DNA from: a virus
Length of the DNA: 46,864 nucleotides
IMG/VR virus record: IMGVR_UViG_3300044832_000098
Location: 1 to 46,864 of that record
Reading direction: 5' to 3' (one strand)
The notes under the pieces were generated by a model, which had not been told where the DNA came from, made no database searches, and saw only the letters and a list, made by a program, of their open reading frames with translations. Shown in pieces: positions 310-44,418 of this stretch (position 1 is the first letter of the stretch; every line of letters starts with the position of its first letter). The translations under genes were made by a program, and so were the position numbers.

Positions 310-524
310 ACTACTCGATGCTGACCAATCGAGAGTTGATAAAATACGGACTGATTGATGCGCCTGTTGGATCATTGGCGGCGCTCATTGCCACACGTTT
401 CGAAGACAACATGGTATCGCTCGATCAAATCGAGAACGATTACGCAGAAGCGTTAGAAGCGTTAGAAGAAAACGCTCGCGAATATAAAAAGACGCTCGCG
501 AACATAAAAAGGCGACTTAAATGA
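306..524 (+). CDS. Small acidic coiled-coil protein, unknown function
   Basis: This 72-residue protein starts at ATG 306, which overlaps the stop of the membrane mini-gene; a longer in-frame extension upstream would swallow that gene and is not favoured. Residues 35-70 are rich in Glu, Ala and Lys with heptad spacing (YAEALEALEENAREYKKTLANIKRR) and probably form a coiled coil. ATGA overlap at 521-524 links it to the next gene. No homologous family is recognised. Confidence 0.65.
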   Translation: MNYSMLTNRELIKYGLIDAPVGSLAALIATRFEDNMVSLDQIENDYAEALEALEENAREYKKTLANIKRRLK

Positions 525-712
525 TTGGGCCATTCATCAAGTGTCCGTTTTGCTCCGGGCATGAGGCGGTCAGCGAGAAAGCGGTCAATACATTCGAGCG
601 CCTGATTTACGAATGGTTGCAAGACCATAACGATCCGGAGCTTGAGAATATTCGCAACGTCATTTTGAACACTCAAGAGCGCAAGCTACCCATTGACCCG
701 CTCTTAACTTGA
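521..712 (+). CDS. Small protein with CxxC motif and DPLL tail
   Basis: The 63-residue product begins MIGPFIKCPFCSGHE; the Cys-Pro-Phe-Cys knuckle plus His14 could bind one zinc ion, though only one CxxC pair is present. The centre is helical and the protein ends LPIDPLLT. That ending closely resembles the C-termini of the proteins at 44233-44418, 43109-43453 and 8171-8731. It starts by ATGA overlap with the previous gene. Function unknown; a protein-docking tail is inferred. Confidence 0.65.
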   Translation: MIGPFIKCPFCSGHEAVSEKAVNTFERLIYEWLQDHNDPELENIRNVILNTQERKLPIDPLLT

Positions 713-752
713 GCCTACAGTCCCTCGCCCTCACAACCTCAGAAGTACCACA

Positions 753-1010
753 ATGAAAAATGCCGTGCGTAAATGGCTCACCCTCGCTACCCCTGAGCAG
801 AAAAGAGCGCTCGCTAAGGCGGCGAAAACCTCCGTCGAGCAGCTAAAGCATTTAGGCGCCGGCCGGCGCTCAGCGAGCGCCGAATTGAGCCAGCGCTTGA
901 GTCGCGCGAGTCGCACCCTAAAATCTAAAGCCCTTGTTCTCGATCAACGTGATTTATGTCCGGCATGTCATGTTTGTCCTTTGGTGAAACGTAGCCCCAA
1001 GGCCGCTTGA
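753..1010 (+). CDS. YdaS/Cro-like helix-turn-helix regulator
   Basis: An 85-residue basic protein. Residues 8-50 (LTLATPEQKRALAKAAKTSV... followed by LGAGRRSASAELSQRLSRAS) match the layout of YdaS/Cro-type regulators: TPEQ start, an AKAAKTSVEQL turn, a Gly-Arg-Arg loop and a recognition-helix support. The C-terminus carries DLCPACHVCP, a cysteine cluster often attached to phage Cro-like proteins. This family represses or switches phage promoters by binding short palindromes. It lies just upstream of the primase gene and is the best candidate to bind the paired repeats at 44432-44511; that link is inference. Confidence 0.75.
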   Translation: MKNAVRKWLTLATPEQKRALAKAAKTSVEQLKHLGAGRRSASAELSQRLSRASRTLKSKALVLDQRDLCPACHVCPLVKRSPKAA

Positions 1011-1033
1011 GAGGTTTGCCCCGGCCCTAGGCA

Positions 1034-3232
1034 GTGGATAAGTTCTCCGACTACGTGAAGGCAGGATGGGCCCTCTGCGGGTTGCCGCGCGGCGCCAAAG
1101 GGCCGACATATCCTAATTGGCAGTTAAACCCGGTACCCCTAGATGCCGCGGATGGGTTAGACGGTGCCGGGTTGCTACACGCCTTGAGCGGCAGTTGTGC
1201 GCTTGACGTGGATGATATTGGTGCGGCGCGGGTTTGGCTTGGGGAGCGTGGGATTGATTTAGACGGATTGCTTGAGGCGAGGGACGCCGTTCAAATCGAC
1301 TCAGGAGCCCGTGGGCGGGCGAAGCTGCTGTACCGTCTCAAAGCCCCACTACGCACCTTTAAACCCCCCGGCAGCGGCTTAGAATTGCGCTGTGCGACGT
1401 TAAGCGGCACTTCCGTCCAAGATGCGCTTCCTCCAAGCTTGCATCCGAGCGGTCGACGCTATGCCTGGAAGTTCGCCGAGCCCCTCCTGGGCGATTGGAG
1501 TCCTCTGCCGGCCATTCCTGCCGCGCTCAAAACGGCCTGGCGTCAGTTGATAGCTGAAGAGCCGACACCCATGCCCTACACCAATGGCGACATGGACATT
1601 GCCCTAGAGAAACTATACGCCTGGATTGGCCCCCAGGACCCCAACATGGACTACGAGCGCTGGTATCGGATTGGCGCCAAATTGCACCATGCGACGCACG
1701 GGGCGGAAGAGGGGCTAGCCCTGTGGGACTCCTGGAGCGCCAAGGCGACGCGCAAGCGCGACGGGGCACCCATCTATGCCACGGCCAACTGCCGGGCGCA
1801 CTGGGTCTCTTTCTCGTCTCCTAAGGGCAAGATCGTGGCCACCTTGGACAACGAGCTGCCGGCGGACGCGGATGAGTTCGATGTGGTGGCACCCGCTCCT
1901 GCAGCCACGACCGAAGAGGCGATGACCCGCCAGACAGCTCAAGCCCGTAAGGATGCAATCGCCACACTCGAAGCGCGCGTGGTCTACGTGCTGGCCTCCG
2001 AGAAGTACTTTGACACGCAGCGCCATCAATTGATCGGCTCGGATTCAGCCCTTGAGCATCAATTCACATCGATGATGCCCCGCGGCAAAAACGGACGGAT
2101 GAATCCGGTGAAGATCCTCAAGCAAAGCACTACTAAAAGATTGGTTGAAGGGCTTGGGTTTCATCCGGGAGAGGGCGCGCTGTTTCAAGTCAAAGGCGAC
2201 ACTTACGCTAATTTGTATCGCAACCGACTGCCCGCTCCCCTTGAGCCTACGAAGCTTGAAGCGGAGAAAATCGAATGGTTGTTTGCTCGTATCGACGATG
2301 AAAATTATAGAACGTGGCTTAAGCAGTATTTCGGCCACGTCGCCCAGCATCCGGCGGTCAAGATAAAAACCGCCCCGTTGATTTGGTCGGAGGAGCAGCG
2401 CAACGGAAAAAGCACGCTGCTTAAAAGTATCCCGGCACTCCTAGTGGGGCGCGAGTTCTCGATCGATGTGAGCTATGACATGCTCAATAGTGGATTTAAC
2501 GATTATCTACAAGGCGCATGGCACGTAAATCTAGTGGAGTTTCGGGCCGGCTCGCGTGGCGAGCGCACGATGATCAATCATAAACTGAAAGCCTATATTG
2601 CGGATGATATGGTGGCGCTGCACCCCAAAGGGAGCAGAGGTTACGAGATGCCGAACCACGCTTTTGTAACCGCATCGAGTAATGAAGAGGATGCGGCGGC
2701 AATCGATAACAATGATAAGCGCTGGGGGATTCATGAAATGAAAGCCCCCGAGTACACCGAAAGCGAACGCCAATGGATCTATCATCAATTTTTGCTCGTG
2801 CCACGCAGCGCGGCGGTCCTGCGCCATTACTTTTTGCATGTCGATTTGACCGGATTCTATCCTGCAGGGAGCGCGCCGATGACGGAAGCTAAGCGACAGA
2901 TGGCTGCAGCATCCTTACCGATGGATACGGAATTGCTACTGACAATGTTCGAGGAGAAAGCTGAATTTTTTAATAAGGACGTAGTGATAACTAGCGACGT
3001 AGTGGCTTACGTACAGAAGCGGTTGCGCTTTGTTTCCGCTACTCGCATTGGCCGCATACTGGCTAAACCTCCTTTTAACGGTATCGTCAAGCGTTTCAAG
3101 GGCACTAACGGCAGACTTTTCAGAGGGGTGATTATTCGTAATCATTCACTATGGGACGCAGCTCCGCACGATAAAGTTATGGCCCATATCAATTTTGAAG
3201 ACGATTTGATTGAGGTTGATTTACTGTCTTAG
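1034..3232 (+). CDS. Primase-polymerase / SF3-type helicase (PriCT-2, DUF5906)
   Basis: A 732-residue replication protein starting at GTG. Residues 1-180 look like an archaeo-eukaryotic primase domain, with the metal-binding LDVDD (D58, D60) and the LPPSLHPSGRRYAW signature. A PriCT-2 linker follows at about 185-260 (YERWYRIGAKLHH, LWDSWSAKA). The C-terminal half is a D5-like helicase: Walker A NGKST (458-461), a hydrophobic strand ending in Glu for Walker B (VNLVEF), and the sensor-like FVTASSNEEDA followed by NNDKRW. It would prime and unwind the phage DNA for the family A polymerase encoded downstream. It replaces a separate DnaG/DnaB pair. The product ends EVDLLS. Confidence 0.88.
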   Translation: MDKFSDYVKAGWALCGLPRGAKGPTYPNWQLNPVPLDAADGLDGAGLLHALSGSCALDVDDIGAARVWLGERGIDLDGLLEARDAVQIDSGARGRAKLLYRLKAPLRTFKPPGSGLELRCATLSGTSVQDALPPSLHPSGRRYAWKFAEPLLGDWSPLPAIPAALKTAWRQLIAEEPTPMPYTNGDMDIALEKLYAWIGPQDPNMDYERWYRIGAKLHHATHGAEEGLALWDSWSAKATRKRDGAPIYATANCRAHWVSFSSPKGKIVATLDNELPADADEFDVVAPAPAATTEEAMTRQTAQARKDAIATLEARVVYVLASEKYFDTQRHQLIGSDSALEHQFTSMMPRGKNGRMNPVKILKQSTTKRLVEGLGFHPGEGALFQVKGDTYANLYRNRLPAPLEPTKLEAEKIEWLFARIDDENYRTWLKQYFGHVAQHPAVKIKTAPLIWSEEQRNGKSTLLKSIPALLVGREFSIDVSYDMLNSGFNDYLQGAWHVNLVEFRAGSRGERTMINHKLKAYIADDMVALHPKGSRGYEMPNHAFVTASSNEEDAAAIDNNDKRWGIHEMKAPEYTESERQWIYHQFLLVPRSAAVLRHYFLHVDLTGFYPAGSAPMTEAKRQMAAASLPMDTELLLTMFEEKAEFFNKDVVITSDVVAYVQKRLRFVSATRIGRILAKPPFNGIVKRFKGTNGRLFRGVIIRNHSLWDAAPHDKVMAHINFEDDLIEVDLLS

Positions 3233-3271
3233 CGTATGCTACCCTTCATAACCCAAAAGCAGGAGTTTATT

Positions 3272-3688
3272 ATGTCAGAAGCAAGCAGAGCAGCAGCGTT
3301 AGCGCATGCTGCCACCGTTCATCATGGCAGCGCCGATCCGCAAGCGACGTTGCAAGCCGCGGAAGCATTTCACGCATTCATCGTAGCCAATGGAGAAGCG
3401 GCGCCGGCAAAGCCTGTGAAGCTCGGAGCAGCCGCTAAACAACCCAAGCCGATCAAACAGCCCCAACCTGTAGCGCCGCCGGTTGAAGAGGAAGAAGCCG
3501 ACGAGCCCGCAGAAGGCGTAACCAAGGAGCAAGTTGGAGAAGCGGTGGAAGCGCTGCTCAATGCCAATTTGCGCAATCAGGCTATCGCGTTGTTCAAGAA
3601 GTTCAACGCCAAGAGCCTGTCGGGTATATCGCCCGCAGACTACGCGGCGGCGAAACAGGAAGCGGAGGACTTGTTGCTCAACTCGTAA
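3272..3688 (+). CDS. Ala/Pro-rich acidic protein, unknown function
   Basis: I choose ATG 3272 because AGGAG lies nine bases upstream; an earlier in-frame ATG at 3236 lacks a ribosome site. The 138-residue product has an Ala-rich helical N-terminus, a Lys/Pro/Gln hinge with a run of Glu (EEEEADEPAEG) around residues 80-90, and a helical C-terminal domain containing LFKKFNAKSLSGISPADYAAAKQ. The C-terminal part resembles a short helical adaptor with an acidic linker. Located directly after the primase, it may be a replication accessory, but no family is recognised. Confidence 0.65.
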   Translation: MSEASRAAALAHAATVHHGSADPQATLQAAEAFHAFIVANGEAAPAKPVKLGAAAKQPKPIKQPQPVAPPVEEEEADEPAEGVTKEQVGEAVEALLNANLRNQAIALFKKFNAKSLSGISPADYAAAKQEAEDLLLNS

Positions 3689-3766: not shown

Positions 3767-3964
3767 ATGAAAAATCTAACTGAGGTTGTGACTGATGATT
3801 TGAAGGCGCTCCTATTTTGGGCGAGCGTCGGCGTGCGCCAATCTAAGGGCGGCGCTTATGAGGCACACATCGAGAACATTATTGAGTCTTACGCCAAGCA
3901 CCTTAAATTGCAGTTGCCGCGCGCGAAATTTCTGACAGCACAGCAAAGAGGAACAGAGTCATGA
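3767..3964 (+). CDS. Small helical protein, unknown function
   Basis: A 65-residue protein preceded by GGCAGGAGAGCA, an excellent ribosome site. It is predominantly helical (DDLKALLFWASVGV, IENIIESYAKHL). It opens the chain of coupled mini-genes extending to 6744; its stop overlaps the next ATG (ATGA at 3961). No family is recognised. A possible 18-codon reading frame beginning GTG at 3728 with AGAGGTAA upstream overlaps its start and could be a leader peptide. Confidence 0.6.
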   Translation: MKNLTEVVTDDLKALLFWASVGVRQSKGGAYEAHIENIIESYAKHLKLQLPRAKFLTAQQRGTES

Positions 3965-4305
3965 GCGCGAGACGCGAATACTGTGCGACGTTTGGCGAGG
4001 TAGTTGTAGCCGCATCCGACTACGACGCCCTCGCGGCCGTGCTGGCCAAGTACCAAGCGTGCCGCGTGCACGACGTGGACGAAAAGAACTGGCTACGGGA
4101 TCGGGTTAACGCGCTTGAGGCCGTGCTGCGTGATGTGATGCCGCTGTTGGCTGAGTGCGATTGCATTTACTCAGACCGAGACGCACCGCTTTGCCCATGC
4201 CGGACTGCTAGAGCTACTTTGGAAACGTCAGATGATGCAGCCGCGAAGGCGATGCGCGGCTACTCCCCGGTTCGACTTGTACGGTTCAGCGCTCGCTGGT
4301 GGTGA
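3961..4305 (+). CDS. Cys-rich small phage protein
   Basis: The 114-residue product has an N-terminal helical segment (YDALAAVLAKYQ), a probable coiled coil (NWLRDRVNALEAVLRDVMPLLAE) and a C-terminal cysteine set CDCIYSDRDAPLCPC that could hold a metal. The pattern of coil plus CDC/CPC is common among small phage early proteins of unknown function. It is coupled to both neighbours by ATGA and GTGA overlaps. Confidence 0.55.
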   Translation: MSARREYCATFGEVVVAASDYDALAAVLAKYQACRVHDVDEKNWLRDRVNALEAVLRDVMPLLAECDCIYSDRDAPLCPCRTARATLETSDDAAAKAMRGYSPVRLVRFSARWW

Positions 4306-4406
4306 AGTGCCCGGAATGCGGAACTGAGTGCGAGCCATACGCCGAAGTCGATATCGGTGTGGGTGTAATGCAGGGCGGTCCGTGGGGTTGCCCAGCGTTG
4401 GAGTGA
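4302..4406 (+). CDS. 34-residue zinc-ribbon-like micro-protein
   Basis: GTG 4302 overlaps the previous stop (GTGA). The predicted product begins MKCPECGTECEPYAEV and ends GPWGCPALE. It has four cysteines, arranged CPEC, TEC and GC, enough for one small zinc site. Its size, the overlap and the Shine-Dalgarno site for the following gene just inside its end (GGAGTGAAG) fit the tiling pattern of this cluster. It is short, so the call rests on composition and context. Confidence 0.45.
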   Translation: MKCPECGTECEPYAEVDIGVGVMQGGPWGCPALE

Positions 4407-4410
4407 AGCC

Positions 4411-4668
4411 TTGAGCCAAGTACACGATGGGTTCGTGCGCGACATGCTAAAAGTCACCAGAGACGACGGCAGCGGAAATCACGCGCCGTTCACAGTGTGG
4501 GAGGAAGCCCAATTGCTGCACTCGTTCTTGCGCAAAACATCGTTGGAGGGCGTATTGCGCGAGATGGTTGACCGCTGGGAGCCGGATGGGGGCAGCGACA
4601 AGCGACTTTGGGACAGAGCGCGAGAACTTCTCGGCTACGAACCGAGTGACGCAGGAGAGCAGAAGTGA
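4411..4668 (+). CDS. Small hypothetical protein
   Basis: Translation probably starts at TTG 4411, with GGAG seven bases upstream; ATG 4444 is an alternative. The 85-residue product contains FTVWEEAQLLHSFLRKTSLEGVLREMVDRWEP, two helices with amphipathic character, and ends AGEQK. The final GGAGA codons double as the ribosome site of the next gene, which begins GTG at 4665 overlapping this stop. No known family. Confidence 0.55.
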   Translation: MSQVHDGFVRDMLKVTRDDGSGNHAPFTVWEEAQLLHSFLRKTSLEGVLREMVDRWEPDGGSDKRLWDRARELLGYEPSDAGEQK

Positions 4669-5030
4669 GTGAACCCCGTAATACCAAGCCGACGATTGCC
4701 GAGCTAGAAGCTATCTTGGCGCGCACTAATGTACCTGACATTGAAATAACGCCGAACGGCGAAGTCATGGTCAAGGGGTTGCGCCATGAGCTTGAGCACG
4801 CCATAAACCGCGTCAGCGCGGAGAACGGCAGCAATACCCCAGACCTGATCCTTGCTGAGTTCTTGGTGTCCTGCCTCGCGGCATTCGACCGGGCGGTACA
4901 GCAGCGGGAACGCTGGTACGGATTCGCGATGCATGTCGCCATGCCTGAAACGATCACGCGGCCATATCCGCCTCAATCTACATTCAAGGCGATTGAGTTA
5001 CCTGATGAAACAGAGGGAGATCCGAAGTGA
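4665..5030 (+). CDS. Small hypothetical protein
   Basis: A 121-residue product from GTG 4665. The N-terminal half has an IAELEAILARTNVPDIEITPNGEV segment, suggesting a helix then two short strands; the C-terminal half has FAMHVAMPETITRPYPPQ. No recognised motif or membrane segment. It is tightly coupled to both neighbours by GTGA overlaps, and its C-terminal codons (GGGAGA) supply the next ribosome site. Confidence 0.55.
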   Translation: MSEPRNTKPTIAELEAILARTNVPDIEITPNGEVMVKGLRHELEHAINRVSAENGSNTPDLILAEFLVSCLAAFDRAVQQRERWYGFAMHVAMPETITRPYPPQSTFKAIELPDETEGDPK

Positions 5031-5209
5031 TTACGGGTAAGACTGATTTTGGGATGCTTCAGCGTGAGAACCACGATTTGCGGGCGTTGCTTCGTCGCTG
5101 GCAGGATTTTGGCCGGGACTATTTCAGCACTGGCACAAGTCCTGATCTTATTCGGGATACCGACGCGGCGCTTGGCTCTACTGTCGATGGAGAAACAGAG
5201 CGTGTCTAA
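5027..5209 (+). CDS. Small helical protein, unknown function
   Basis: 60 residues from GTG 5027 (GTGA overlap). The segment MLQRENHDLRALLRRWQDFGRDYF looks like a short coiled coil followed by an aromatic-rich turn. It ends VDGETERV, in which GGAGAAA serves the downstream start. Unknown function. Confidence 0.5.
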   Translation: MITGKTDFGMLQRENHDLRALLRRWQDFGRDYFSTGTSPDLIRDTDAALGSTVDGETERV

Positions 5210-5369
5210 AAAGATCCCAGAACTAACTCACGGCGATACCGAGATAGGGGTCCTCGTGGAGTGTTACAAGTCGCTCAAGATGCTGGATCGTGACGCGCAA
5301 AATCGGGCGCTAAATTGGCTGATAGCTCGACTGGAAGACGACACGGCCGATGGACGTGCGGAGTCATGA
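5202..5369 (+). CDS. Small helical protein, unknown function
   Basis: I choose GTG 5202 because GGAGAAACAGAGC sits just upstream and it gives a typical MSKKIPEL start; ATG 5187 in the same frame is the alternative. The 55-residue product contains GVLVECYKSLKMLDRDAQNRALNWLIARL, two helices that resemble a minimal helical hairpin. The stop overlaps the ATG of the next gene at 5366. Confidence 0.5.
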   Translation: MSKKIPELTHGDTEIGVLVECYKSLKMLDRDAQNRALNWLIARLEDDTADGRAES

Positions 5370-5575
5370 GCATGCCGCATACCTGCCGGTGTGAGATCTG
5401 CGGCAATGAAATGCACTGGGCGCGGCCGATCGACAATCAGGAGAAATGCGTGACTTGCGGCAAGCGCCTATTCGGCCTGTCGATTCCACGGCTTGGCATT
5501 CACGAAATTGGAGACTTCTGCATGTGTGTCAAAAGCACTCTGACAACTACCAGCGGAGAAGTGAATGAAACTTAG
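5366..5575 (+). CDS. Zinc-ribbon-like protein
   Basis: From ATG 5366, overlapping the previous stop, the 69-residue protein carries HTCRCEICGNEM, KCVTCGKR and FCMCVK: three Cys-x-Cys or CxxC groups consistent with one or two zinc sites. Starting earlier, at 5315, would overlap the upstream gene by 55 bases, so the shorter form is preferred. It ends SGEVNET, in which GGAGAAG is the ribosome site for the next start at 5565. A nucleic-acid or protein-binding role is plausible but unproven. Confidence 0.6.
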   Translation: MSMPHTCRCEICGNEMHWARPIDNQEKCVTCGKRLFGLSIPRLGIHEIGDFCMCVKSTLTTTSGEVNET

Positions 5576-6032
5576 AGAAGCCATCAAGCGGGCAAACTCG
5601 ACCTTCCGCTATTGGAACTACCGCCGCACCGAGACAACGGTGCATATGACCTTTACGTGGGCGTGCCGCGAATGGGTACGGAGGCTCTGCTTTGAACTAC
5701 GGCACAACCAACAGCGGAGAAACTGTCGGATGAGCTTTGAAGGTAACTATTACGAAGCCTGCAAGCGCATCGGCGAACTTGGCGCTGAGCTTCAGCGCGT
5801 CTACGAGACCAATGCGGTAAACGCCGAACTGCTGCGTAAGGAACAAGAGCGCACAGGTCAGCTAGCGGGGGCGATTCGGCACTACTGCGCGCAATCCACT
5901 ATCGGCAGTCCATACGGAGTGGACGGTCTTAAAGGCGCGACCGCGCACCACCAGATGTACCGAGAATATTTTGAGCGCGCATTGGATGGCTCTCAATTTT
6001 CGCCACAGTCTGATGCCGGCGTGAAGCCGTGA
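5565..6032 (+). CDS. Hypothetical protein; may be two genes with a boundary at 5730
   Basis: The open frame gives 155 residues. Residues 56-155 start MSFEGNYYEACKRIGELGAE and form a coiled coil with a compact C-terminus. The ATG at 5730 is preceded by CAGCGGAGAAACTGTCGG, the same start cassette used by other genes here. In the +1 frame the upstream DNA ends in SGETVG and a TGA overlapping that ATG, exactly like other junctions in this cluster. The first 55 residues (Arg/Trp-rich) may thus be a separate gene altered by a frameshift near 5650. I report the full frame and flag the doubt. Confidence 0.5.
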   Translation: MKLREAIKRANSTFRYWNYRRTETTVHMTFTWACREWVRRLCFELRHNQQRRNCRMSFEGNYYEACKRIGELGAELQRVYETNAVNAELLRKEQERTGQLAGAIRHYCAQSTIGSPYGVDGLKGATAHHQMYREYFERALDGSQFSPQSDAGVKP

Positions 6033-6214
6033 ACGGACGGCGCCTCGATCCGTGTGTGTGCGGCAACTGCAAGTTCTTCCGTGAACGTGCCAACAAGCCA
6101 ACGGATCAATCGTATGGCTATTGTGCATGGTTGCCGAAGCGGGTGATAGTCGATCGCACACACTGGTGTGGACAGTTCCGCGCGCTGACGCCAGCGCCGG
6201 TGTGTTTTTATTAG
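6029..6214 (+). CDS. Cys-rich small phage protein
   Basis: A 61-residue product from GTG 6029 (GTGA overlap). It contains CVCGNCKFFRE, then GYCAWLP and HWCGQF. The spacing CGNC...C...C with aromatic neighbours is typical of small zinc-binding phage proteins of unknown function. It is basic and compact, with no membrane segment. Confidence 0.6.
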   Translation: MNGRRLDPCVCGNCKFFRERANKPTDQSYGYCAWLPKRVIVDRTHWCGQFRALTPAPVCFY

Positions 6215-6247
6215 AGGCACTAAATGAAACCGATGGAGGCGCTGAAC

Positions 6248-6661
6248 ATGAGTGACAATCTGAGTCGGCTTCTTGCCCTGGCTGATGCAATCCAAGCACG
6301 CGTTCCGCTTACCGGCGCTCTTAGCGCTGAAGCGAGCACCTGCCGTTATGCGGCGGGTGAACTGTCTGAGGCACGCAGTCGCATTAAGCGACTAGAAATT
6401 GATTTAGCCGGAGCGCTGGCATTGGCAGCGGAGATGGAAATGCAAAGTAATCAGGCAGGGGCGGCGTCTTCGGGCGCTGGAGTACCGAGACCTAGGCCCA
6501 GGGGGTCGTTGCCGAATAGCCTGGGCTCTCTACGAGCCGCGCTTCGCAAATACGGCCATCACCTATCGCCCTGCATGGGGTACGAGGGGGAGACGTGCAC
6601 ATGCGGTTTTGAGGCGATTTTCGATGCCTGCTCTGCTGCCAGCGGAGAGGTGAAGTCATGA
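6248..6661 (+). CDS. Small hypothetical protein
   Basis: ATG 6248 has GGAGG eight bases upstream; ATG 6224 in the same frame is an alternative with GAGG. The roughly 137-residue product has a helical N-terminus rich in Ala, Arg and Glu (a coiled coil at about residues 40-65), a Pro/Arg linker (VPRPRPRG) and a C-terminal part with CMGYEGETCTCG that may bind metal. It ends SGEVKS, whose GGAGAGG codons are the ribosome site for the next micro-gene. Confidence 0.5.
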   Translation: MSDNLSRLLALADAIQARVPLTGALSAEASTCRYAAGELSEARSRIKRLEIDLAGALALAAEMEMQSNQAGAASSGAGVPRPRPRGSLPNSLGSLRAALRKYGHHLSPCMGYEGETCTCGFEAIFDACSAASGEVKS

Positions 6662-8170: not shown

Positions 8171-8731
8171 ATGCGAATCATGTTACGCGACGTGCGTCAG
8201 TCTTTCATGGTCTACTGGAAGCCAGAGCCCTACCCCGGCGGGAACGATCCCACCCCTTACTTCAGCGGCACGTACCTGTTACCGCCGAATCATCCGCAGC
8301 TCAAAGAGCTAAATAAAATCTGCGTTGATCTGTGCAATGAGAAGTGGGGAACGCGCGGACCTGCGATTTACAAAGCCATCCAGATGACGGGTAAAATCTT
8401 TTTGCGCGATGGCAATACCAAGCCGGACTATGATGGTTTCCCCGGCAATTGGTTTATCTCCGCACGCTCTAAGGTGATGCCGAGCTACTTCGATGGGCAG
8501 AAACAGCCCATCACCGAAGCGCAAGGTATTCTCTATAGCGGCTGCTATGTGAACGTCAGCCTGGAGATGTTTGCCTATGATAAGGGCAACAACGGCTTGG
8601 GCGCTCGGCAGCGCGGTGTACAGTTCTTGCGTAAGGGAGATGCGTTCGGCGGTGGCGGGCCGCCGGCCAGTGAAGACGAGTTCGATGAAATCGACAACCC
8701 TGAGGAAGAGACCGATCCGTTGATGGGTTGA
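8171..8731 (+). CDS. DUF2815 single-stranded DNA-binding protein
   Basis: I start at ATG 8171, with AAAGGAAA upstream, rather than at GTG 8108. The 186-residue product matches DUF2815, a T7 gp2.5-like OB-fold family: SFMVYWKPEP near the start, KWGTRGPAIYKAIQM, SARSKVMPSYFDG, GCYVNVSLEMFAYD, and GLGARQRGVQFLRKGDAFGGG. A Gly hinge leads to a strongly acidic tail ending EEETDPLMG. Acidic tails of SSB proteins recruit partner enzymes; this one ends in Asp-Pro-Leu-Met. It sits between the nuclease and polymerase genes, as is usual for the DUF2800-DUF2815-PolA module. Confidence 0.85.
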   Translation: MRIMLRDVRQSFMVYWKPEPYPGGNDPTPYFSGTYLLPPNHPQLKELNKICVDLCNEKWGTRGPAIYKAIQMTGKIFLRDGNTKPDYDGFPGNWFISARSKVMPSYFDGQKQPITEAQGILYSGCYVNVSLEMFAYDKGNNGLGARQRGVQFLRKGDAFGGGGPPASEDEFDEIDNPEEETDPLMG

Positions 8732-8820: not shown

Positions 8821-9075
8821 GTGTTTTCTAAAGATATTGAAGAAAATTGCGAAATATTGCGTGAGCTGATTGCCGCATTGCCTCCAAGCGAACGTCCCTA
8901 CGCCAAGAAAGCCGCAATGAAAATGGAAAAAGCATTCACCGATCTGCAACGCGATTACCCAAAGAGCGCGGCGGTCGCGCTGGGTGCAGCTTTTGCAATC
9001 TATATGATCGGTGCGCGGATCGTAGAGCAGGCCAAAGAGAGCGACGGTGAGGGGTTGATTAAGTTGGTCAGCTAA
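8821..9075 (+). CDS. Small hypothetical protein
   Basis: GTG 8821 has AGGAG six bases upstream. The 84-residue product is helical, with a charged N-terminal two thirds and a hydrophobic stretch at about 59-75 (AVALGAAFAIYMIGARIV) that may be membrane-associated or simply buried. It lies between SSB and DNA polymerase, one base from the polymerase start, so it is probably co-translated with replication proteins. No family is recognised. Confidence 0.65.
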   Translation: MFSKDIEENCEILRELIAALPPSERPYAKKAAMKMEKAFTDLQRDYPKSAAVALGAAFAIYMIGARIVEQAKESDGEGLIKLVS

Positions 9076-9076: not shown

Positions 9077-11158
9077 ATGCGGCTGTTCGTTGACATCGAG
9101 TCGAGAAGCTCCGTGCCGATCCGGCAAGGCAATGTTAAATATTCGACAGCCGTCGAAATCATCATGCTGCAATGGGCGATTGATGATGGCCCCGTAACTG
9201 TTGAAGAGCTGCCTTCCCTCAAGTTCAAAAGCGCAGTCAAAAAAGCGGACGAAATCTGGGCTCACCAAGCCGAGTTCGACCGCACGATGTTGGAAACGTG
9301 CAGTTGGTGGCAAGCGCTCAAAGTCCCTGAAACCAAATGGCGCTGTACCGCAGCGCTCGCCCGGATGCATGGCCTGCCTGGGGGGCTTGATAAGCTCTGC
9401 ACCATTTTCAATCTGCCGCCCGATCAAGCGAAAACTGACGGTAAGGATCACATTCAGCTTTTCTGCAAGCCCAACAAAACGGGCATGTACAACGATCAGC
9501 GCTCGCACCCCAAGGAGTGGGCCGAGTTCCTGGCCTATGGTGGTCAGGACGTTATTGCAATGCGCCACATCCACGCCAAGATTCCTAAGTGGAATGCGAC
9601 GCCTCGTATGTGGGCTGTGTGGCGCTTGGATTTTCGGATGAATCATCGCGGGGTAGCGATGGATATCCCCCTCGCAGAGGGCGCCATAGAGGCCACCACG
9701 CGCGATAAGAGTAAGCTGGCGGCACGCACGGCTAAACTCTCAAAGATCCAAGCGAGCGGCTTGGAGGGTGATGAAAGCGCCGTGGAATCAACCACGCAGC
9801 GCGATCGGCTGCTGGCCTATATGTCGGACTTCGGTGTCAACTTGCCGGACTTAACCGCTGACACCGTAGAGAGGAGACTAGAAGATGAATCACTTCCCGA
9901 ACACATTAAAGAGCTTTTACGTATTCGCCAGAAAGCTTCCAAGACTAGTACGGCTAAGTATAGCCGCGTTATTAATCAGCATGTTGGTGGCCGTCTATTT
10001 AACTTGCTGGTTTTTTGCGGTGCTATGCGTACTGGCCGGTGGGCTGGTCGCACACTGCAGCCACAAAATCTACCTCGCCCTAGACACGAGACGTGGGATA
10101 TAGCGCATGCGATCAAACATTTCCAAAACGGCACGATTGACGCGTATGCTCCCGATGACGTTTTGGGGCTTGCGTCGAGCGCTCTGCGTGGACTCATTAT
10201 CTCGGAGCCTGGAAGACGCTTGGCTACCTCTGACCTTGCCAATATCGAAGGCCGATACATGGCATGGATTGCCGGTGAGGATTGGAAAATTGCCGCCTAC
10301 GAAGCTTATGATCGGAAAGAAGGGCCAGATTTATACAAGGTAGCTTATGCTCGTCCATTCGCAATTGATCCCAACTCTATCGCTGATGACGGCGATTACC
10401 GTAGGCAAGTTGGGAAGGTTATGGAACTCGCCTTACAATATTATGGTGGCGTCGGAGCCTTCTGCTCGATGGCGGAAACATATGGCCTCAATCTCAACGA
10501 GCTTGCCGTTACCGCCTGGCCCACAATACCGATTGACGTTAAGCGAACGGCTCAACAGCTTTGGCACAAGGCCATAAAGGCTAGACGTACATATGGACTC
10601 GAAGAACGAACGTGGATCGTCTGCCAGGCTTTGGTTCTCATGTGGCGGGCCGCGCATCCGATGGTGGTGGCGTTTTGGGAAACTCTGGATAATGCGATTA
10701 AGGACGCGATTAGAAGCCCTGGAAAGAAGTTCAAGGCAGGCGAGCGAATCACCGTGGACCGTGTTGGTAACTGGCTGCGAATTAAGCTCCCTAGCGGACG
10801 CTACCTCAACTACCCAGCGCCCCGAGTTAAAACCGACGGGTACTTCACTAACCGATCCTTCGTCGGAGTAAACCCCTATACCAAGCAATGGGGCCGGATT
10901 GCCACCTACAGTGGCAAAGATGCTGAAAATGTTTGCCAAGGCGGATGCGCGGATATTCTCATGGACGGATTACTGGCAGCGGACGAGGCCGGCTACAACC
11001 CGGTACTTTCTGTTCACGATGAAGTTATTTGCGAGTCTCCGGACAAGGATCACTATAGCGATAAGGGTTTAAGCCGTTTGATGGTTGAATCAAGTCTCTG
11101 GGCCGATGGGCTTCCACTAACCGCAAAAGGAAAGGTCACTTATCGTTATGCAAAATGA
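9077..11158 (+). CDS. Family A DNA polymerase with 3'-5' exonuclease domain
   Basis: 693 residues, usual for phage PolA enzymes. The N-terminal DnaQ-like exonuclease shows FVDIES (D6, E8), AHQAEFD (D68) and YGGQDV. The polymerase domain has GRWAGRTLQPQNLPRP, motif A SDLANIEGR (D386), the O-helix motif B RRQVGKVMELALQYYG (R442, K447) and motif C VHDEV (D648). All catalytic residues are present, so it should copy the phage genome with proofreading. Its 3' end overlaps a small cysteine-rich gene by 11 bases. The long frame at 9885-10103 inside it is a shadow. Confidence 0.95.
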   Translation: MRLFVDIESRSSVPIRQGNVKYSTAVEIIMLQWAIDDGPVTVEELPSLKFKSAVKKADEIWAHQAEFDRTMLETCSWWQALKVPETKWRCTAALARMHGLPGGLDKLCTIFNLPPDQAKTDGKDHIQLFCKPNKTGMYNDQRSHPKEWAEFLAYGGQDVIAMRHIHAKIPKWNATPRMWAVWRLDFRMNHRGVAMDIPLAEGAIEATTRDKSKLAARTAKLSKIQASGLEGDESAVESTTQRDRLLAYMSDFGVNLPDLTADTVERRLEDESLPEHIKELLRIRQKASKTSTAKYSRVINQHVGGRLFNLLVFCGAMRTGRWAGRTLQPQNLPRPRHETWDIAHAIKHFQNGTIDAYAPDDVLGLASSALRGLIISEPGRRLATSDLANIEGRYMAWIAGEDWKIAAYEAYDRKEGPDLYKVAYARPFAIDPNSIADDGDYRRQVGKVMELALQYYGGVGAFCSMAETYGLNLNELAVTAWPTIPIDVKRTAQQLWHKAIKARRTYGLEERTWIVCQALVLMWRAAHPMVVAFWETLDNAIKDAIRSPGKKFKAGERITVDRVGNWLRIKLPSGRYLNYPAPRVKTDGYFTNRSFVGVNPYTKQWGRIATYSGKDAENVCQGGCADILMDGLLAADEAGYNPVLSVHDEVICESPDKDHYSDKGLSRLMVESSLWADGLPLTAKGKVTYRYAK

Positions 11159-11324
11159 GACCGAGCAGCTATACCTATCGCTTAAAAGCTACCCCTGTCG
11201 CTGCGTGTACGCGCGGACCGCCAACGGTCAGCCATTGTACGAGAAAGGCGAGCGTGTGCTTGAAAAGAAATGCGCGCGTTGTGGCGCTATGGAAACGTAT
11301 GAGCAAACCCGAATCGGCAGTTGA
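11148..11324 (+). CDS. Small CxxC protein nested between polymerase and VRR-NUC genes
   Basis: ATG 11148 lies inside the polymerase 3' end and is read in another frame. The 58-residue product has YPCRCVYAR and KKCARCGAMETYE: a CxC plus CxxC pair 25 residues apart, able to bind one zinc ion. It overlaps the next gene by 26 bases. Without it there would be about 140 bases of gap in an otherwise gapless operon, which supports it. Such small zinc-ribbon proteins are frequent beside VRR-NUC genes, but the function is unknown. Confidence 0.6.
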   Translation: MQNETEQLYLSLKSYPCRCVYARTANGQPLYEKGERVLEKKCARCGAMETYEQTRIGS

Positions 11325-31474: not shown

Positions 31475-33105
31475 TATTGAAACTGAATAAGTGTCGGGCG
31501 AATGGCTGGGGGAATAGCAGTAGCTCCAGGGATGTACTTCTTCGTCCCGTGGGTTCCGGCAATTAGTTCCTTACGATATGCATTCGCCATCGCCTGTACA
31601 TTGTTCGCATCCGGCTTGCCGTAGTGCGCTTTAGCGACAGCCAGCGTATGAAGAAACAGCAGCGTCGCATCGATCGTAGAAGAATCGGTATCAGCTACCA
31701 ATGCTCGAAGACCAAAATGCGCTTTCATCCACAACCAATAAGTCTGATCCGGCGCCGGATACAACTCGATGCACTGGCGAATCTCATATCTTGCCGGTCG
31801 CCAAGGTTTGTCGATCATCGTGTAGAGCTGCGGCTGGATGCCCTCAACCAGCGGGTACCAGACATTACGACTGTCCTGAATACCCGCCCATTCGATCGTC
31901 TTTAACGGGTCCATCTGATAGTTGCACAGCACGTCTTCGTCGTTGTCTTTTAGCGAGTAGAAACGTTGGCCCGGATTGACTTTCCAACGAAACATGCGAC
32001 GCGTGTGTAACTGGTTGTAGCGCCGATACAAATACTTCTGCCCGCGAGACAGCCATGAATTGACGAGTGCCGCCATACCCGGCGGTGGGCTCGCCGCTTG
32101 AGTGGCGAAGCCTAACTCCGTCAGGATATCCGTGCGTAACTGCAATAGCGTTTCAGTCGGCACCACCTCATCGACACACTCGCAGTTGTAGCTAATCGGG
32201 TTGAAGGGATTTGGGTAATCCCAGGCGAGATGTTCATTGGCGTTTCGCGTGATGGCGACCGCTACCTGCCAAGGTTTTGCACTGGCGCTCGAAACACCGC
32301 CCGTCGTGAACACTTTGACGACCAACGCGGTCGTCAAGGTACTCAACGTCGCCAGAACTTGGTGACTTAACAGGCTGTGCCCCTGCAAGGAAGGACCTAT
32401 CTGAACTTGGGTAAAGTTGGTCCCGTCAGTGGAGAACGCAATGAATACACTCGAGCCATCGGTAGCCGCTTGGGTGATAGACGTTTGAAGTGCCATGATG
32501 CCGTCAGTTCTAAACGCCGAATCCCCTATGAAGGTAATCGGGTCCGGGGTTGGGGCAAAAGCGTCTGGGGTAAACCAATAACGGCCATCTCCGTTACGCG
32601 GGAAATTGACGGTTTGCGGAACGTTCTGAAAACTAAGAGGTGGGATGTTGCCGCTAGCATCTTCCCATGCGCCTGGATTAGGGATGTCGCCTTGTCCGCC
32701 GGGTGATGGCACAGGGGATGAAAAATCAAGTGCGACAACAGCATCGTACGTGGTGCCTAACCCATTAAAAAATGCAACCGTTAATGCACCTATCAACCCC
32801 GTTACGGGCACTACACCACTGCCTATCGTTGTGCCCAACGAAATAGGACTACCGCCATTTATAACCAATTGCAGTAGCTTTCCTGTTTCTGGCGGTACCG
32901 TTACCTCCCAATTAACATCTACGGCGGAAGGCAATACAGGGCTGCTACCAATATAGATGATGTCAGCATTAGCGCTCATAGATCCGCCGGGCGGCGCTAT
33001 CCACCAATACCTACCGTCTGCTACCACTGCGTTGTACTGATGCGGGGGACTATGATGCGTTGGAAAATCGTTATCGCGCCAGTTGCCTGGATCATTCACT
33101 GCCAT
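31474..33105 (-). CDS. Head-to-tail adaptor (P22 gp4-like) with duplicated N-terminal domain
   Basis: 543 residues. The C-terminal half (about 310-543) is a helical adaptor: ETLLQLRTDILTELGF, ALVNSWLSRGQKYLYRRYNQLHTRRMFRWKV, YEIRQCIELYPAPDQTYWLW and a Lys/Asn-rich C-terminal helix (AKAHYGKPDANNVQAMANAY), as in P22 gp4/T7 gp11-type proteins. The N-terminal 300 residues are two related beta domains beginning NDPGNWRDNDFP (4) and NPGAWEDASGNIP (143), each with DGRYW near 30 and 173 and an ITFIGDS/IIYIGSS strand. Typical adaptors lack this extension. It should dock on the portal ring. Confidence 0.75.
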   Translation of the reverse strand: MAVNDPGNWRDNDFPTHHSPPHQYNAVVADGRYWWIAPPGGSMSANADIIYIGSSPVLPSAVDVNWEVTVPPETGKLLQLVINGGSPISLGTTIGSGVVPVTGLIGALTVAFFNGLGTTYDAVVALDFSSPVPSPGGQGDIPNPGAWEDASGNIPPLSFQNVPQTVNFPRNGDGRYWFTPDAFAPTPDPITFIGDSAFRTDGIMALQTSITQAATDGSSVFIAFSTDGTNFTQVQIGPSLQGHSLLSHQVLATLSTLTTALVVKVFTTGGVSSASAKPWQVAVAITRNANEHLAWDYPNPFNPISYNCECVDEVVPTETLLQLRTDILTELGFATQAASPPPGMAALVNSWLSRGQKYLYRRYNQLHTRRMFRWKVNPGQRFYSLKDNDEDVLCNYQMDPLKTIEWAGIQDSRNVWYPLVEGIQPQLYTMIDKPWRPARYEIRQCIELYPAPDQTYWLWMKAHFGLRALVADTDSSTIDATLLFLHTLAVAKAHYGKPDANNVQAMANAYRKELIAGTHGTKKYIPGATAIPPAIRPTLIQFQ

Positions 33106-33632
33106 AGCTTAGACTCCGCTTGCTGATGCAAACCCCGTAGCTTCATCCCTCCACTCAGACGAATACGGCGCACATAAAGCCATTGCTGTAAATCTATCGT
33201 GCCAAGGGGCAGGCGTTTCAGTAGCGCCACGTTAGGTGTCGCCCGAAAAGGCGTTAGATCCTGTTGCTTCACCCACAACGTTTTATATATCGTTAAGTGA
33301 TGCCTGACCGTACAAGGTTTGAAATTACCATTGGCGTAAAGCTCTATCTCCCTGGCGCATACCGCAGGCGGCGAAAGAAAAAGGCTCGCCGCGATTGCTG
33401 TGAAAGCATGCGGTAGCAGGTAGTCATCATCATCTACCCAACAAACGTAAGTGCTTGAGGTAAGCGCAAGCCCGTTGATCATAGCCTGACCGATATGCCC
33501 TGGGACTCCGGGAACTACTATGACGTTGACAGGAAATGGCGCAAGAGTTTTGGCCGCATTAACAGAGGCGAGGCACGCATCGACAAATAACCCTGGGGTA
33601 TCGACGGACTTTATAATTATCACGTCCAACAC
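33096..33632 (-). CDS. Glycosyltransferase-like protein (GT-A fold), small
   Basis: I choose GTG 33632: GGAGG lies eight bases upstream and the product then starts MLDVIIIKSVDTPG, a normal first beta-strand. Longer frames run back through a terminator hairpin. The 178-residue protein has PFPVNVIVVPGVPGHIGQAM (nucleotide-sugar pocket) and CWVDDDDYLLPHAF (D67-D70, the DxD-type metal site). It is shorter than most family 2 enzymes and lacks a clear acceptor domain. Third glycosyltransferase in the structural operon. Confidence 0.7.
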   Translation of the reverse strand: MLDVIIIKSVDTPGLFVDACLASVNAAKTLAPFPVNVIVVPGVPGHIGQAMINGLALTSSTYVCWVDDDDYLLPHAFTAIAASLFLSPPAVCAREIELYANGNFKPCTVRHHLTIYKTLWVKQQDLTPFRATPNVALLKRLPLGTIDLQQWLYVRRIRLSGGMKLRGLHQQAESKLWQ

Positions 33633-33647
33633 GTCATTATCCTCCAT

Positions 33648-33676
33648 AAAAAGCGGGCCGGGAAGTCCCGGCCCGC
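33648..33676 (-). terminator. Intrinsic terminator after the head genes
   Basis: On the minus strand an 11-base-pair perfect stem (GCGGGCCGGGA/TCCCGGCCCGC, 33653-33676) is followed by TTTTT. It sits between the head accessory gene ending at 33715 and the glycosyltransferase gene. It should reduce transcription of the tail genes relative to the capsid genes. Confidence 0.85.
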
Positions 33677-33714
33677 AACACTTACCGTCGCCGTTCGCGA
33701 CAGAAGTCCCCACA

Positions 33715-34083
33715 TCAAACTAGCAGCGAATCGCTCGCGTGCGGCCGGCGGCGAACACGAGTGCTTGGAACTTGCGCCTCGTCGTCTTCCTCCTTTGCAG
33801 CTTCGATCGCTTTTGCCAGCGCGCGGACCCCAGTGCGGGCAACCCCGTACACCGTGACCGCATGGGGAATGTCGGTTTTGACATCGGCCCCGTAGGCTTT
33901 CATCAATCGCACCATCTCTTGCGCGGGGTCAGGATAGTCCTGGTCCGCCTGTACAAATTCGTCCGTCCGGGTCACGTTTCCTTCATCGAAGAGATATTCC
34001 AAAATTGGAATCTCCCACGGAGCCAAAGTCTTATTATGGACCGTGTTGTTGTCCCGTTTGACCATCACTCTTTCATGTCGCAT
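33715..34083 (-). CDS. Small head-region protein
   Basis: 122 residues, AAGGAAA before the ATG. Acidic/basic mixed, with HNKTLAPWEIPILEYLFDEGNV and DQDYPDPAQEMVRLMKAYGAD in the first half, and a basic C-terminus (RVRRRPHASDSLLV). It follows the capsid accessory gene, just before the terminator. It may be a head-completion or capsid accessory protein; no family is recognised. Confidence 0.6.
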   Translation of the reverse strand: MRHERVMVKRDNNTVHNKTLAPWEIPILEYLFDEGNVTRTDEFVQADQDYPDPAQEMVRLMKAYGADVKTDIPHAVTVYGVARTGVRALAKAIEAAKEEDDEAQVPSTRVRRRPHASDSLLV

Positions 34084-35858: not shown

Positions 35859-36016
35859 TTAGGTTCTCCAAGAAATGGACATGGTTATCACCGTGTCTTC
35901 TTGGGGTGCGAACCCTTATACGCCGCGCGAGACGCGCGCCGGGTGACGATGCCGGTAACAGTCAGAAGGCGTTCCGTCAGAAGGCTACGCCAATAACGGA
36001 TCAAGTGTCAAATTTG
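35859..36016 (-). promoter_or_regulatory. Leader of the major capsid gene
   Basis: This 158-base gap contains, in minus-strand order, a TTGACA (36011-36006) with only a weak TAGCCT-like -10 eighteen bases downstream; two 10-base direct repeats GTCAGAAGGC spaced 15 bases apart (35961-35985 on the plus strand); a 6-base-pair CG stem with a 3-base loop (35924-35938); and the sequence TATAAG just after it. A separate capsid promoter is plausible, not proven. Confidence 0.35.
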
Positions 36017-36868
36017 TCACATCACCATCAACCGTTTGGCATAGCTCTCTGCTTCAGCCCAGGACTGATTAGCCGCTAGCAGCCGGTGCGCGACCTCGAT
36101 CCGCGCATGGATAAAAATCCGAATGCCGTTGACGACCGCCTCCCGCACCCCCGGTTGGGTAAGCTGCTTATTGAATAGGTCCCACGCCAAGTTCTCAAGT
36201 CCAGCCCGATAGGCATCGAAGTCGGTCAGCGCCTGCACGTCGCCCATCTTCACGCGCCTACCGATTGGGTGCTCGGTGATATTGCGATAAAAGGGCGTCT
36301 TCGCAAAATGCACGGGACCCGCCGCGAACGCCGCGGCAAGATCCAAGAAGCACCAATAGGCGCGCAGGCGCGGTAGCAGGATTTTCTCTAGCCCTTCCCG
36401 GCGCCAAATGACGTGCTCTGGCCACACATGCTTTTGAATAACGAAGTTCCATAACACATCGGGCGCGGTGAAGGTTTCATCCTCCGCCACGTAGAAGGCG
36501 TCCCATGTTGGCTTCTGCTCGACTTCGTTGTAGAGCTGACAGGGCGCGTAGTAGGCCACGACTTTAGGGTTGGCCTCTAAAAACGCAATACCCTTCGCTA
36601 CCTCTTCTGGCACCAGATAGTCATCGTCACCTAAAAAAGTGCAGTATTTAGTGCTGCTGGCGAGCAGCGCCACGCGCATGTTGGGGAAGGCGCCGATATT
36701 GGTAGCCTGGCGGATATAACGGCACTTGAACTGAATCGTTCGTGTGTCATCCGTCGAGGCGTTATCAGAAACTATTATTTGTGCATCGGGAAAATCTTTT
36801 TGTGTTCGTTCTAGCGTCCACTTCAAAAAGTCGAAGCGGTTGTATGTAGGAATACAGATGCTTAACAT
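36017..36868 (-). CDS. Family 2 glycosyltransferase
   Basis: Start ATG 36868 (four codons before the end of the upstream frame) gives 283 residues beginning MLSICIPTYNRFDFLKWTLE, the classic GT2 opening. VSDNASTDDT (33-42) binds the nucleotide sugar and FLGDDDYLVPEE carries the metal-binding D81-D83. YEP-like acceptor elements are replaced by RRVKMGDVQAL and a helical C-terminus. It should transfer a sugar to an acceptor that may be a virion protein or a cell-surface glycan. It lies between the other head glycosyltransferase and the capsid gene, so co-expression with capsid is expected. Confidence 0.85.
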   Translation of the reverse strand: MLSICIPTYNRFDFLKWTLERTQKDFPDAQIIVSDNASTDDTRTIQFKCRYIRQATNIGAFPNMRVALLASSTKYCTFLGDDDYLVPEEVAKGIAFLEANPKVVAYYAPCQLYNEVEQKPTWDAFYVAEDETFTAPDVLWNFVIQKHVWPEHVIWRREGLEKILLPRLRAYWCFLDLAAAFAAGPVHFAKTPFYRNITEHPIGRRVKMGDVQALTDFDAYRAGLENLAWDLFNKQLTQPGVREAVVNGIRIFIHARIEVAHRLLAANQSWAEAESYAKRLMVM

Positions 36869-37473
36869 CCAAATTTTCTCCCGTCGTGATCCAAGCGTAT
36901 GCCGCAATCCATCCAGGGTTGTACCCCCGCAGCACATGCGAGGTCGGAGAAGGAATAATCTTCCGACATCAACAGGTCGTTGAAAATACGTCCATTGTAA
37001 AACTGATGGAATTTCCCTTGGTGGTACGTCGGCACCAGTTTTTTCTCGACAATGACCTCAAACACTTCGCGCGTCACTTTCAAGAATCCGCCAGGCAGAA
37101 AACGCATGCGCAACATGCCCTGCTCCGGAATCTCTTTGAGCGGTACCGGCTGACCGGTATCGTCTCGGCAGTGCGGCATGGGCGGCTGCGCTTTGTCGGT
37201 ATATAGCCCGCTCACCATCGGCTCGGTGCTGCTAAGCAGCGCGGCGAAATTCTCACGCGTAAAACCAATATCGCTATCGATCCACACCAAGGTGTTGAAC
37301 TGGGGGTTTTGCAAAAACGAGTTGGCCAGTGTGTTACGGGCGTGATGAATATCCGACTGGCCTGATAGCGGTACCCAGCCGCCATATAGTCCGCTAATCA
37401 TCATGAGCCCAACACAGTAATGAACATCGCTACCTCGCATTGGGGTAGCAATCATCACTTCCTTATAGTTCAC
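36862..37473 (-). CDS. Glycosyltransferase-like protein (GT-A fold)
   Basis: 203 residues from GTG 37473 overlapping the previous stop. MNYKEVMIATPMRGSDVHY begins a Rossmann-like half; TLVWIDSDIGFTRENFAALL (D66-x-D68) is the DxD-type site; LPGGFLKVTREVFEVI and MSEDYSFSDLACAAG (a conserved SEDxxF acceptor motif) follow. Such short GT-A proteins occur in phage genomes near structural genes. Overlaps the next glycosyltransferase, so both are made together. Confidence 0.8.
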   Translation of the reverse strand: MNYKEVMIATPMRGSDVHYCVGLMMISGLYGGWVPLSGQSDIHHARNTLANSFLQNPQFNTLVWIDSDIGFTRENFAALLSSTEPMVSGLYTDKAQPPMPHCRDDTGQPVPLKEIPEQGMLRMRFLPGGFLKVTREVFEVIVEKKLVPTYHQGKFHQFYNGRIFNDLLMSEDYSFSDLACAAGVQPWMDCGIRLDHDGRKFGC

Positions 37474-43108: not shown

Positions 43109-43453
43109 CTATTGTAGCAAGGGATCAATGTCCGGGAAAGAATCTACAGGACCGTGGTTTATTCCGCGGGAAACGGTAACAATAGATTGACTTGGACCAA
43201 TACGCGGTAGTTGTTTTTGCTCAATTATTGAAACTAACGCCTCATCGCTCATGGATGCGAGCAAGGCCGCTTGTCTGCGAGATGCTGGTACCTGAATAAT
43301 CGCCTGGGAGGGTTTCCCGTAGCCCCGATCTAAAATCGCCTCCGCGGCGCGGATCTTATCGCGATCCTCCACAGCGGTTTCCATAGTGTCGGCCAGAAGC
43401 TCAATCGCCCTTGGACCGTGCGTGCGCGCCAGCTCGTCAATTCCTTTGCTCAT
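43109..43453 (-). CDS. terS: Terminase small subunit-like protein
   Basis: 114 residues. GIDELARTHGPRAIELLADTME and RAAEAILDRGYGKPSQAI match the small DUF5681-like proteins that precede TerL in many phages. The C-terminus is FPDIDPLLQ, sharing the I-D-P-L-L-x ending with two unrelated small proteins of this phage and similar to the SSB tail. It is the first gene of the leftward operon, so it probably recognises packaging DNA. Confidence 0.75.
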   Translation of the reverse strand: MSKGIDELARTHGPRAIELLADTMETAVEDRDKIRAAEAILDRGYGKPSQAIIQVPASRRQAALLASMSDEALVSIIEQKQLPRIGPSQSIVTVSRGINHGPVDSFPDIDPLLQ

Positions 43454-43711: not shown

Positions 43712-43970
43712 GCTGGGCTGCCAAGCTCCATGCCTGCTCGGCCGGGTTGGTTCAGCCTTTTCAGTACGGGCTGTAAAGTGAGACGCCGAAATATGAATCG
43801 CTTGTTTTTAAGGCTTTTTTCAACACTACATTCACCCTATACATACTTTTCAGAGAGAGAGAGAGAGAATAGAGAAGATATAATATAGATCATTTCATAA
43901 TTGTAGCCGACGACCCTCTGGAAGCCGGCAATAGTCTGAACAATATGAAAAGGGTGGCAAATCGATACTA

Positions 43971-44000
43971 TTGACAGTTTATAAATAATTGAAATATTAT
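43971..44000 (+). promoter_or_regulatory. Strong sigma70-type rightward promoter
   Basis: TTGACA (43971-43976), an 18-base AT-rich spacer and TATTAT (43995-44000; five of six consensus). Transcription would begin close to 44007, about 13 bases before the ATG at 44020, whose GGAG lies at 44011-44014. This should be an early promoter read by host RNA polymerase. Confidence 0.75.
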
Positions 44001-44019
44001 TTTTCTTTTTGGAGTATTT

Positions 44020-44232
44020 ATGTCCTACAAAACAATGGATGAAGTTAAATTGATTGAAACGCTTAGCCGTGATTTACAGGAAGCCGGCACGAGGCTTTTG
44101 ACTATCGCAATGGCCTCGCCTAACCGCGAAGCGGCGGATTCGCTAGTGCGAGCCAGTGAAGCGGTACTAATCGCAGCGCGCAAGGCTGGCAACCATCTAT
44201 CCGACTACTGGGAACGCTTAGGAGATACCTAA
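44020..44232 (+). CDS. First early gene: small helical protein
   Basis: 70 residues, GGAG six bases from the ATG. Fully helical, with MDEVKLIETLSRDLQEAGTRLLTIAMA and ADSLVRASEAVLIAARKAGNHL. No recognised family. As first gene behind the strongest promoter it may be made abundantly at the start of infection; small proteins here often modify host functions, which is inference. Its stop abuts the next ATG. Confidence 0.65.
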   Translation: MSYKTMDEVKLIETLSRDLQEAGTRLLTIAMASPNREAADSLVRASEAVLIAARKAGNHLSDYWERLGDT

Positions 44233-44418
44233 ATGACTGCCAGACGTGATTTCCAACGCGCCCAATTGATCGCAGACGGGCGCAAAGCAATTGCCATGGT
44301 TAAACATGGCGCATCGATCAATGACGTGTTGGCGAGCATCCAGGGAAGCCGGGCGCGGCTCTATCGAGCTATCCGTATCGCAATGCAGCAACAACCGATC
44401 GATCCGTTACTTTTGTGA
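44233..44418 (+). CDS. Small basic protein with possible helix-turn-helix and DPLL tail
   Basis: 61 residues. MVKHGASINDVLASIQGSRARLYRAIRIA looks like a resolvase-type helix-turn-helix, in which a short helix, a Gly-Ser turn and an Arg-rich recognition helix follow. The C-terminus QPIDPLLL matches the tails at 712, 43109 and partly 8731. It could be an early DNA-binding regulator. Start directly follows the stop of the previous gene. Confidence 0.6.
   Translation: MTARRDFQRAQLIADGRKAIAMVKHGASINDVLASIQGSRARLYRAIRIAMQQQPIDPLLL

Follow-up and report, generated by a model that had tools for sequence, protein, structure and literature searches.

The virus genome analysed here (IMG/VR record IMGVR_UViG_3300044832_000098; 46,864 bases, the whole of which is referred to as the window) encodes proteins of unrelated families that finish on the same few residues, D-P-L-[LM]-x, where x is the last residue before the stop codon. 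This ending is under selection at the protein level, is strictly positioned and is spread over unrelated families. It is probably a docking tail, through which its carriers would meet one shared reader in a DNA-bound hub.

Four counted window proteins have the exact ending, each with exactly one residue between the motif and the stop: a 63-residue protein (521-712, plus strand; IDPLLT*, DPLLT codons at 695-709), an SSB of the T7 gp2.5/Enc34 type (8171-8731, plus strand; acidic tail EETDPLMG*, codons at 8714-8728), a small terminase subunit (TerS; 43109-43453, minus strand; IDPLLQ*, codons at 43126-43112) and a 61-residue protein (44233-44418, plus strand; IDPLLL*, codons at 44401-44415). The tail codons differ among these copies. 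All four ends (IDPLLT*, TDPLMG*, IDPLLQ* and IDPLLL*) had been pointed out in an earlier note on this DNA and are present where it placed them, and the set is larger than it described. The same note called the bodies unrelated, naming an OB-fold, a TerS, a helix-turn-helix (HTH)-like protein and a zinc knuckle, and these assignments fare unequally. The SSB is well founded (PF10991, E 7.6e-32; phrog_112, E 1.2e-36), and both the PF10991 domain and the acidic C-terminus belong to the SSB protein only. TerS is supported by its position adjoining the large terminase (TerL) gene and by weak profile similarity to solved small terminases (7JOQ/6W7T, E 0.007-0.009; phrog_10899, E 0.021, also weak). 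The 44233-44418 product has no family match in profile searches and is HTH-like by inspection only (GSRARLYRA), and the zinc knuckle is not established for the 521-712 product, since this protein has only a single CxxC.

Searched in six frames, the window contains DPL[LM] eight times, and in five of these cases exactly one residue separates the motif from a stop; in first-order Markov simulations with the composition of the window (n = 300), terminal DPL[LM]x sites averaged 0.04, with a maximum of 1. The fifth site is an 11-codon ORF (35985-36017, minus strand; MTNLTLDPLLA*), which was considered as a tail-only peptide and rejected. It overlaps a conserved promoter-like element (TTGACA-N17-GGCATAG) upstream of the capsid gene and was therefore left out of the tail count; the site is probably promoter sequence and/or the relic of an endonuclease VII end. 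The element itself, TTGACA-N16/17-[T]GGCATAG[G/A]CT, is conserved before the major capsid gene in the window (35950-36030) and in about 20 relatives, and the endonuclease VII genes of two contigs (G029 and L164) terminate inside it.

Two more window proteins have relaxed forms of the ending, and for each of them the exact DPL[LM]x is found in relatives. One is a late-operon protein (33715-34083, minus strand; SDSLLV*), whose relatives end in NDPLMA, LDPLLA, VDSLLA, ADELLN, ADNLLN or EALLS. The other is a Prim-Pol/PriCT primase (1034-3232, plus strand; EVDLLS*); its relatives end in IDLLS, IDLMS or DEELLA and, in the exact form, in EDPLLS (G006 and G020) or LDPLLM (G022).

The spread of the tail was followed in several dozen related IMG/VR contigs, found with the polymerase, TerS, the SSB and the 8821-9075 product, of which the larger ones were fetched. 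These phages are uncultivated, several of the contigs are fragments, and genes were taken as ORFs with a start codon, uncurated. No close relative of the window phage was found among cultured phages; relatives of its capsid protein occur only in Thioalkalivibrio and Rhizorhabdus MAGs and in Luteibacter and Lysobacteraceae contigs. In the 18 tail-bearing records 54 ORFs end in DPL[LM]x, whereas the same pattern placed 4-13 residues from the end is met 0 or 1 times; in a wider set DPL[LM] stands at offset one in 120 ORFs, as against 0-2 at each of the offsets 2-12. A further 13 ORFs in the 18 records end in D-[not P]-L-[LM]-x, and a good number of these are homologous to tailed proteins, for example SSBs (DDLMS, DDLMG, DELMG) and the late protein (SDSLLV, ADELLN, VDSLLA, ADNLLN). 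When tailed ORFs of at least 40 residues were compared by blastp with their last six residues cut off, the 106 distinct sequences fell into 20 clusters without detectable homology, 10 of which have at least two members; some singletons may belong to known families or be chance ORFs, so that 20 is an upper estimate and 10 a safe one. The largest clusters are TerS (47 members), the HTH-like protein (19), the 521-type protein (8) and the SSB (8); others comprise a second HTH family, primases, the late protein, endonuclease VII (PF02945, E 6.7e-18), a ribbon-helix-helix-like protein (recognised by inspection) and CxxC proteins.

A survey of carriers, in which the motif D-x-[LI]-[LM]-x was sought at the ends of families with at least four members in the tail phages, found the tail in six window families: TerS (14/14), HTH (7/7), the 521-type protein (7/8), SSB (10/15), the late protein (7/10) and primase (4/15, or 13/15 by [LI][LM]x alone). 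It was found in none of the other families with at least four members, including the polymerase, helicase, exonuclease, VRR nuclease, TerL, portal and capsid. Among the more broadly collected TerS relatives 60 of 81 end in DPL[LM]x. The 521-type relatives keep the tail, some of them with a KRKYSN...HLSKQ domain inserted ahead of it. Ends among SSB relatives are DPLMG/A/S, DDLMS, DDLMG, DELMG and DPLLS, and EPDLEG (G007 and G008) and DDINS (G043) depart from the motif, so the SSB is not tied to it in all records. The homologue of the 3236-3688 ORF also ends in EPDLEG in G007 and G008, like their SSBs, and does so in G015 too, where the SSB ends in DPLLS. None of 21 outgroup homologues has the tail (SSB 0/11, primase 0/7, late protein 0/2, TerS 0/1). 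On the simplest interpretation, several proteins gained the tail inside one clade.

Comparing the last residues with the rest of each protein in homologues, as the earlier note had suggested, shows that the tail is kept while the linker before it diverges. Pairwise identity at positions -5 to -2 (tail) and -6 to -15 (linker) is 0.98 and 0.14 for TerS, 0.87 and 0.12 for a broad set of 57 TerS, 1.00 and 0.07 for HTH, 0.57 and 0.17 for SSB, and 0.58 and 0.22 for the late protein. D-P-L-L is invariant in 16 aligned TerS sequences (39-87% identical to the window copy), and the stretch preceding it does not align. Over 113 unique tail sites the 12 bases are spelled in 81 ways, third positions are near random, the flanks are almost uninformative and TTGACA lies just upstream in only 5. 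Such varied spelling between unconserved flanks indicates selection on the protein and shows that no promoter, terminator or repeat can be responsible in general. The proposal that a DNA element over gene ends spells DPLL by accident does hold for one window site, the capsid-upstream ORF; for the whole set these observations refute it, and we give it almost no weight. We give as little weight to a reading in which the tailed proteins share their ends by chance or through common descent. TerS relatives do inherit one tail, so that their sites are not independent; chance is refuted by the counts (five in the window against 0.04 expected), and this reading is further opposed by the 20 clusters without detectable homology and by the strongly diverged TerS of G043, which still ends in ADSLLQ.

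A variable linker, a constant tip, different folds and a fixed distance to the carboxyl end together give the anatomy of a short linear motif. In the explanation that we favour, D-P-L-[LM]-x-COOH (relaxed, D-x-L-[LM]-x) would be a short docking motif on a flexible, unconserved linker, by which one common partner reads the tails of unrelated phage proteins; the fixed spacing suggests that the reader may also sense the chain end. AlphaFold leaves the TerS tail unstructured, in a low-confidence model (pLDDT 63) that is informative for the disordered end only. The tail would gather the SSB, primase, endonuclease VII, DNA-binding regulators and small terminase at one DNA-bound hub, and late transcription, recombination and packaging could in this way be coupled to replication, as with the clamp-binding tails of T4. 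The earlier note had proposed a docking code on unrelated proteins and knew of none described in this form. The kept tails and the up to 20 unrelated clusters support the first part, and a literature search on the exact DPL[LM]x motif, like one on phage clamp motifs, returned no papers; as a type of code, however, it has a precedent in T4.

In T4, the C-terminal motifs with which gp43, gp55 and gp33 bind the gp45 clamp are highly similar and can be freely interchanged (PMC2988020), and that of gp55 sits behind a linker of varying length (PMC2988020; PMC7892883). In both cases unrelated proteins of a single phage carry similar short acidic-hydrophobic C-terminal motifs, linkers of variable sequence and length precede a conserved tip, and the clientele belongs to late transcription and replication. 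Unlike the T4 motif, D-P-L-[LM]-x occurs in 10 to 20 unrelated clusters that include TerS and SSB, and the DNA polymerase is without it (0/14). No gp45-like phage clamp gene was recognised among the part of the window proteins that was profile-searched. T7-type SSBs use an acidic C-terminal tail to contact polymerase and primase-helicase (PMC5686142), and the window SSB belongs to the same family as T7 gp2.5 and Enc34 ORF6 and has an acidic end; in contrast to the T7-type tail, many TerS and HTH tails lack a preceding acidic stretch, and a specific D-P-L-L/M at fixed distance is common to non-replication proteins. The arrangement can be set beside that of Escherichia coli. There the SSB ends in an acidic and hydrophobic tip, DDDIPF, that is read by partner proteins; one tail thus serves many partners, whereas here many proteins bear the tail, as for one reader.

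The reader might instead be the sliding clamp (DnaN, beta) of the host, the phage plugging its proteins into the host toolbelt. Its clients (replication, junction nuclease, regulators, packaging) are much like those of T4 gp45, and in T4 packaging has a link to the late sigma factor, itself a clamp binder. The exonuclease and the primase of Curvibacter phage PCA1 end in SDLFN and SDLFG, near the bacterial clamp-binding motif QL(S/D)LF (PMC9690074). Like that motif, which is often C-terminal, the tail is short, hydrophobic and linear, and would serve many unrelated clients of one hub. It differs in that no Q is seen at the first position, D-P precedes the leucines and a single residue remains before the carboxyl end: the 12 residues listed at position -6, covering 101 of 103 tails, do not include Q, and D at -5 and P at -4 define the set. 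The polymerase, too, has neither the tail nor a canonical clamp motif. We regard the host clamp as a serious rival but an unlikely reader. The canonical motif was rejected as the identity of the tail for want of Q at -6, and one candidate copy, QLYLSL in the window protein at 11148-11324, is not conserved in relatives. A gene of Acinetobacter phage 4316 (L020; 19693-20268), placed after the polymerase, weakly matches the central domain of the beta clamp (PF02767, E 1.2e-5, just under the cut-off) and a processivity factor family (phrog_947).

Large terminase would be a reader of another kind: the tail would have begun as a contact between TerS and TerL and been borrowed by other proteins to reach the packaging motor. 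TerS does have the most constant tail, and the TerS proteins of lambda and P22 bind TerL through their C-terminal region (PMC9611059), yet there is no evident reason for SSB, primase or HTH regulators to dock there, and SSB and exonuclease share tails in outgroup phages; we consider this reading, a rival chiefly where TerS is concerned, rather improbable. A C-terminal degradation or stability signal for a host protease, with no docking role, would likewise be an extreme C-terminal, hydrophobic feature of unrelated proteins. Known C-degrons, however, require defined end residues, and here the last residue varies (L, A, E, R, G, K, S, T, D, M, Q or V); a degron would also leave the invariant D-P unexplained, and structural proteins are selectively without the tail, all of which makes it a very poor candidate.

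For the docking motif we infer a single reader, and the place that we favour for it is the phage replisome, in the cassette formed by SSB, the 8821-9075 product and polymerase. The product of 8821-9075 (plus strand), an 84-residue three-helix protein encoded between SSB and polymerase, may be the reader, although it might also be another client, and we put it forward tentatively, as a possibility read from its co-occurrence with the tail. It is present in every tail-bearing record that covers the position (G000-G007, G009, G013, G015, G020-G022, G029, G034 and G043), and the fragment G008, in which no tailed ORF was seen, has it too; it is absent from the 13 outgroup records tested and from G042. 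This co-occurrence is a lead rather than proof, for the carriers form a single clade and the pattern may reflect one event; other genes of the clade, for example the structural gene at 22248-22619, partly show the same restriction. AlphaFold predicts a three-helix bundle (pLDDT 84.5) with disordered last residues, and fold searches of PDB and BFVD gave no significant match. The flexible end reads LIKLVS or LIQLLS, the latter in most relatives, and on this account the protein could itself be a client. An alternative reader would be the adjoining family A DNA polymerase (9077-11158, plus strand), which has no tail; none of its 14 relatives has one either.

Outside the clade the SSB family has other endings: ADLV in BPP-1, AESLI in Yersinia phage YeP5 and DPLFA in Acinetobacter phage 4316. 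In several outgroup phages SSB and the adjacent exonuclease have the same last residues (DLV/DLV, ESLI/ESLI, DDLA/DDLA and EFA/EFA), with 12 identical ends against 3 expected from control offsets, in a small data set. Such shared ends are as expected if tail and reader diverge together, and SSB and partner genes may have shared tails before the DPLL form arose. The exonucleases concerned adjoin the SSB and are of the DUF2800 type, and matching ends (DLV, ESLI, DLA or EFA) are found in records L071, L072, L098, L110, L115, L117, L121, L122 and L132.

It is conceivable, if speculative, that the whole forms one scheme: a clade-specific code, D-P-L-[LM]-x-COOH, acquired separately by ten to twenty unrelated proteins and read at the polymerase by a small clade-specific adaptor (8821-9075), would build a single hub in which replication, regulation, recombination and packaging meet, while DLV, ESLI and DDLA would be the dialects of related phages. 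In any event the tail exemplifies very clearly a short linear motif that runs through a whole phage lineage. It would place ten to twenty mostly nameless families in a functional context, as clients of one hub, and it points to a physical connection of SSB, primase, regulators and terminase in phages without a known T4-like late-transcription system. The dialects of related phages offer a natural experiment on the joint change of docking code and reader.

Several other features of the genome were observed. One short GC-rich tandem repeat (agcgcggcgag...) makes up both ends of the window (1-150 and 46720-46864), which may mean that the contig is circular or terminally redundant, or that it was broken within a repeat. 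Nine consecutive small ORFs without homologues in the compared relatives make up an accessory region (3767-6661). A DUF932-like gene (45057-46208; phrog_1362) is 91% identical to its counterpart in G003, compared with 60-75% for most shared genes, and has probably been exchanged recently. Within the structural gene region, two ORFs (33096-33713 and 36017-36937) are glycosyltransferase-like by inspection.
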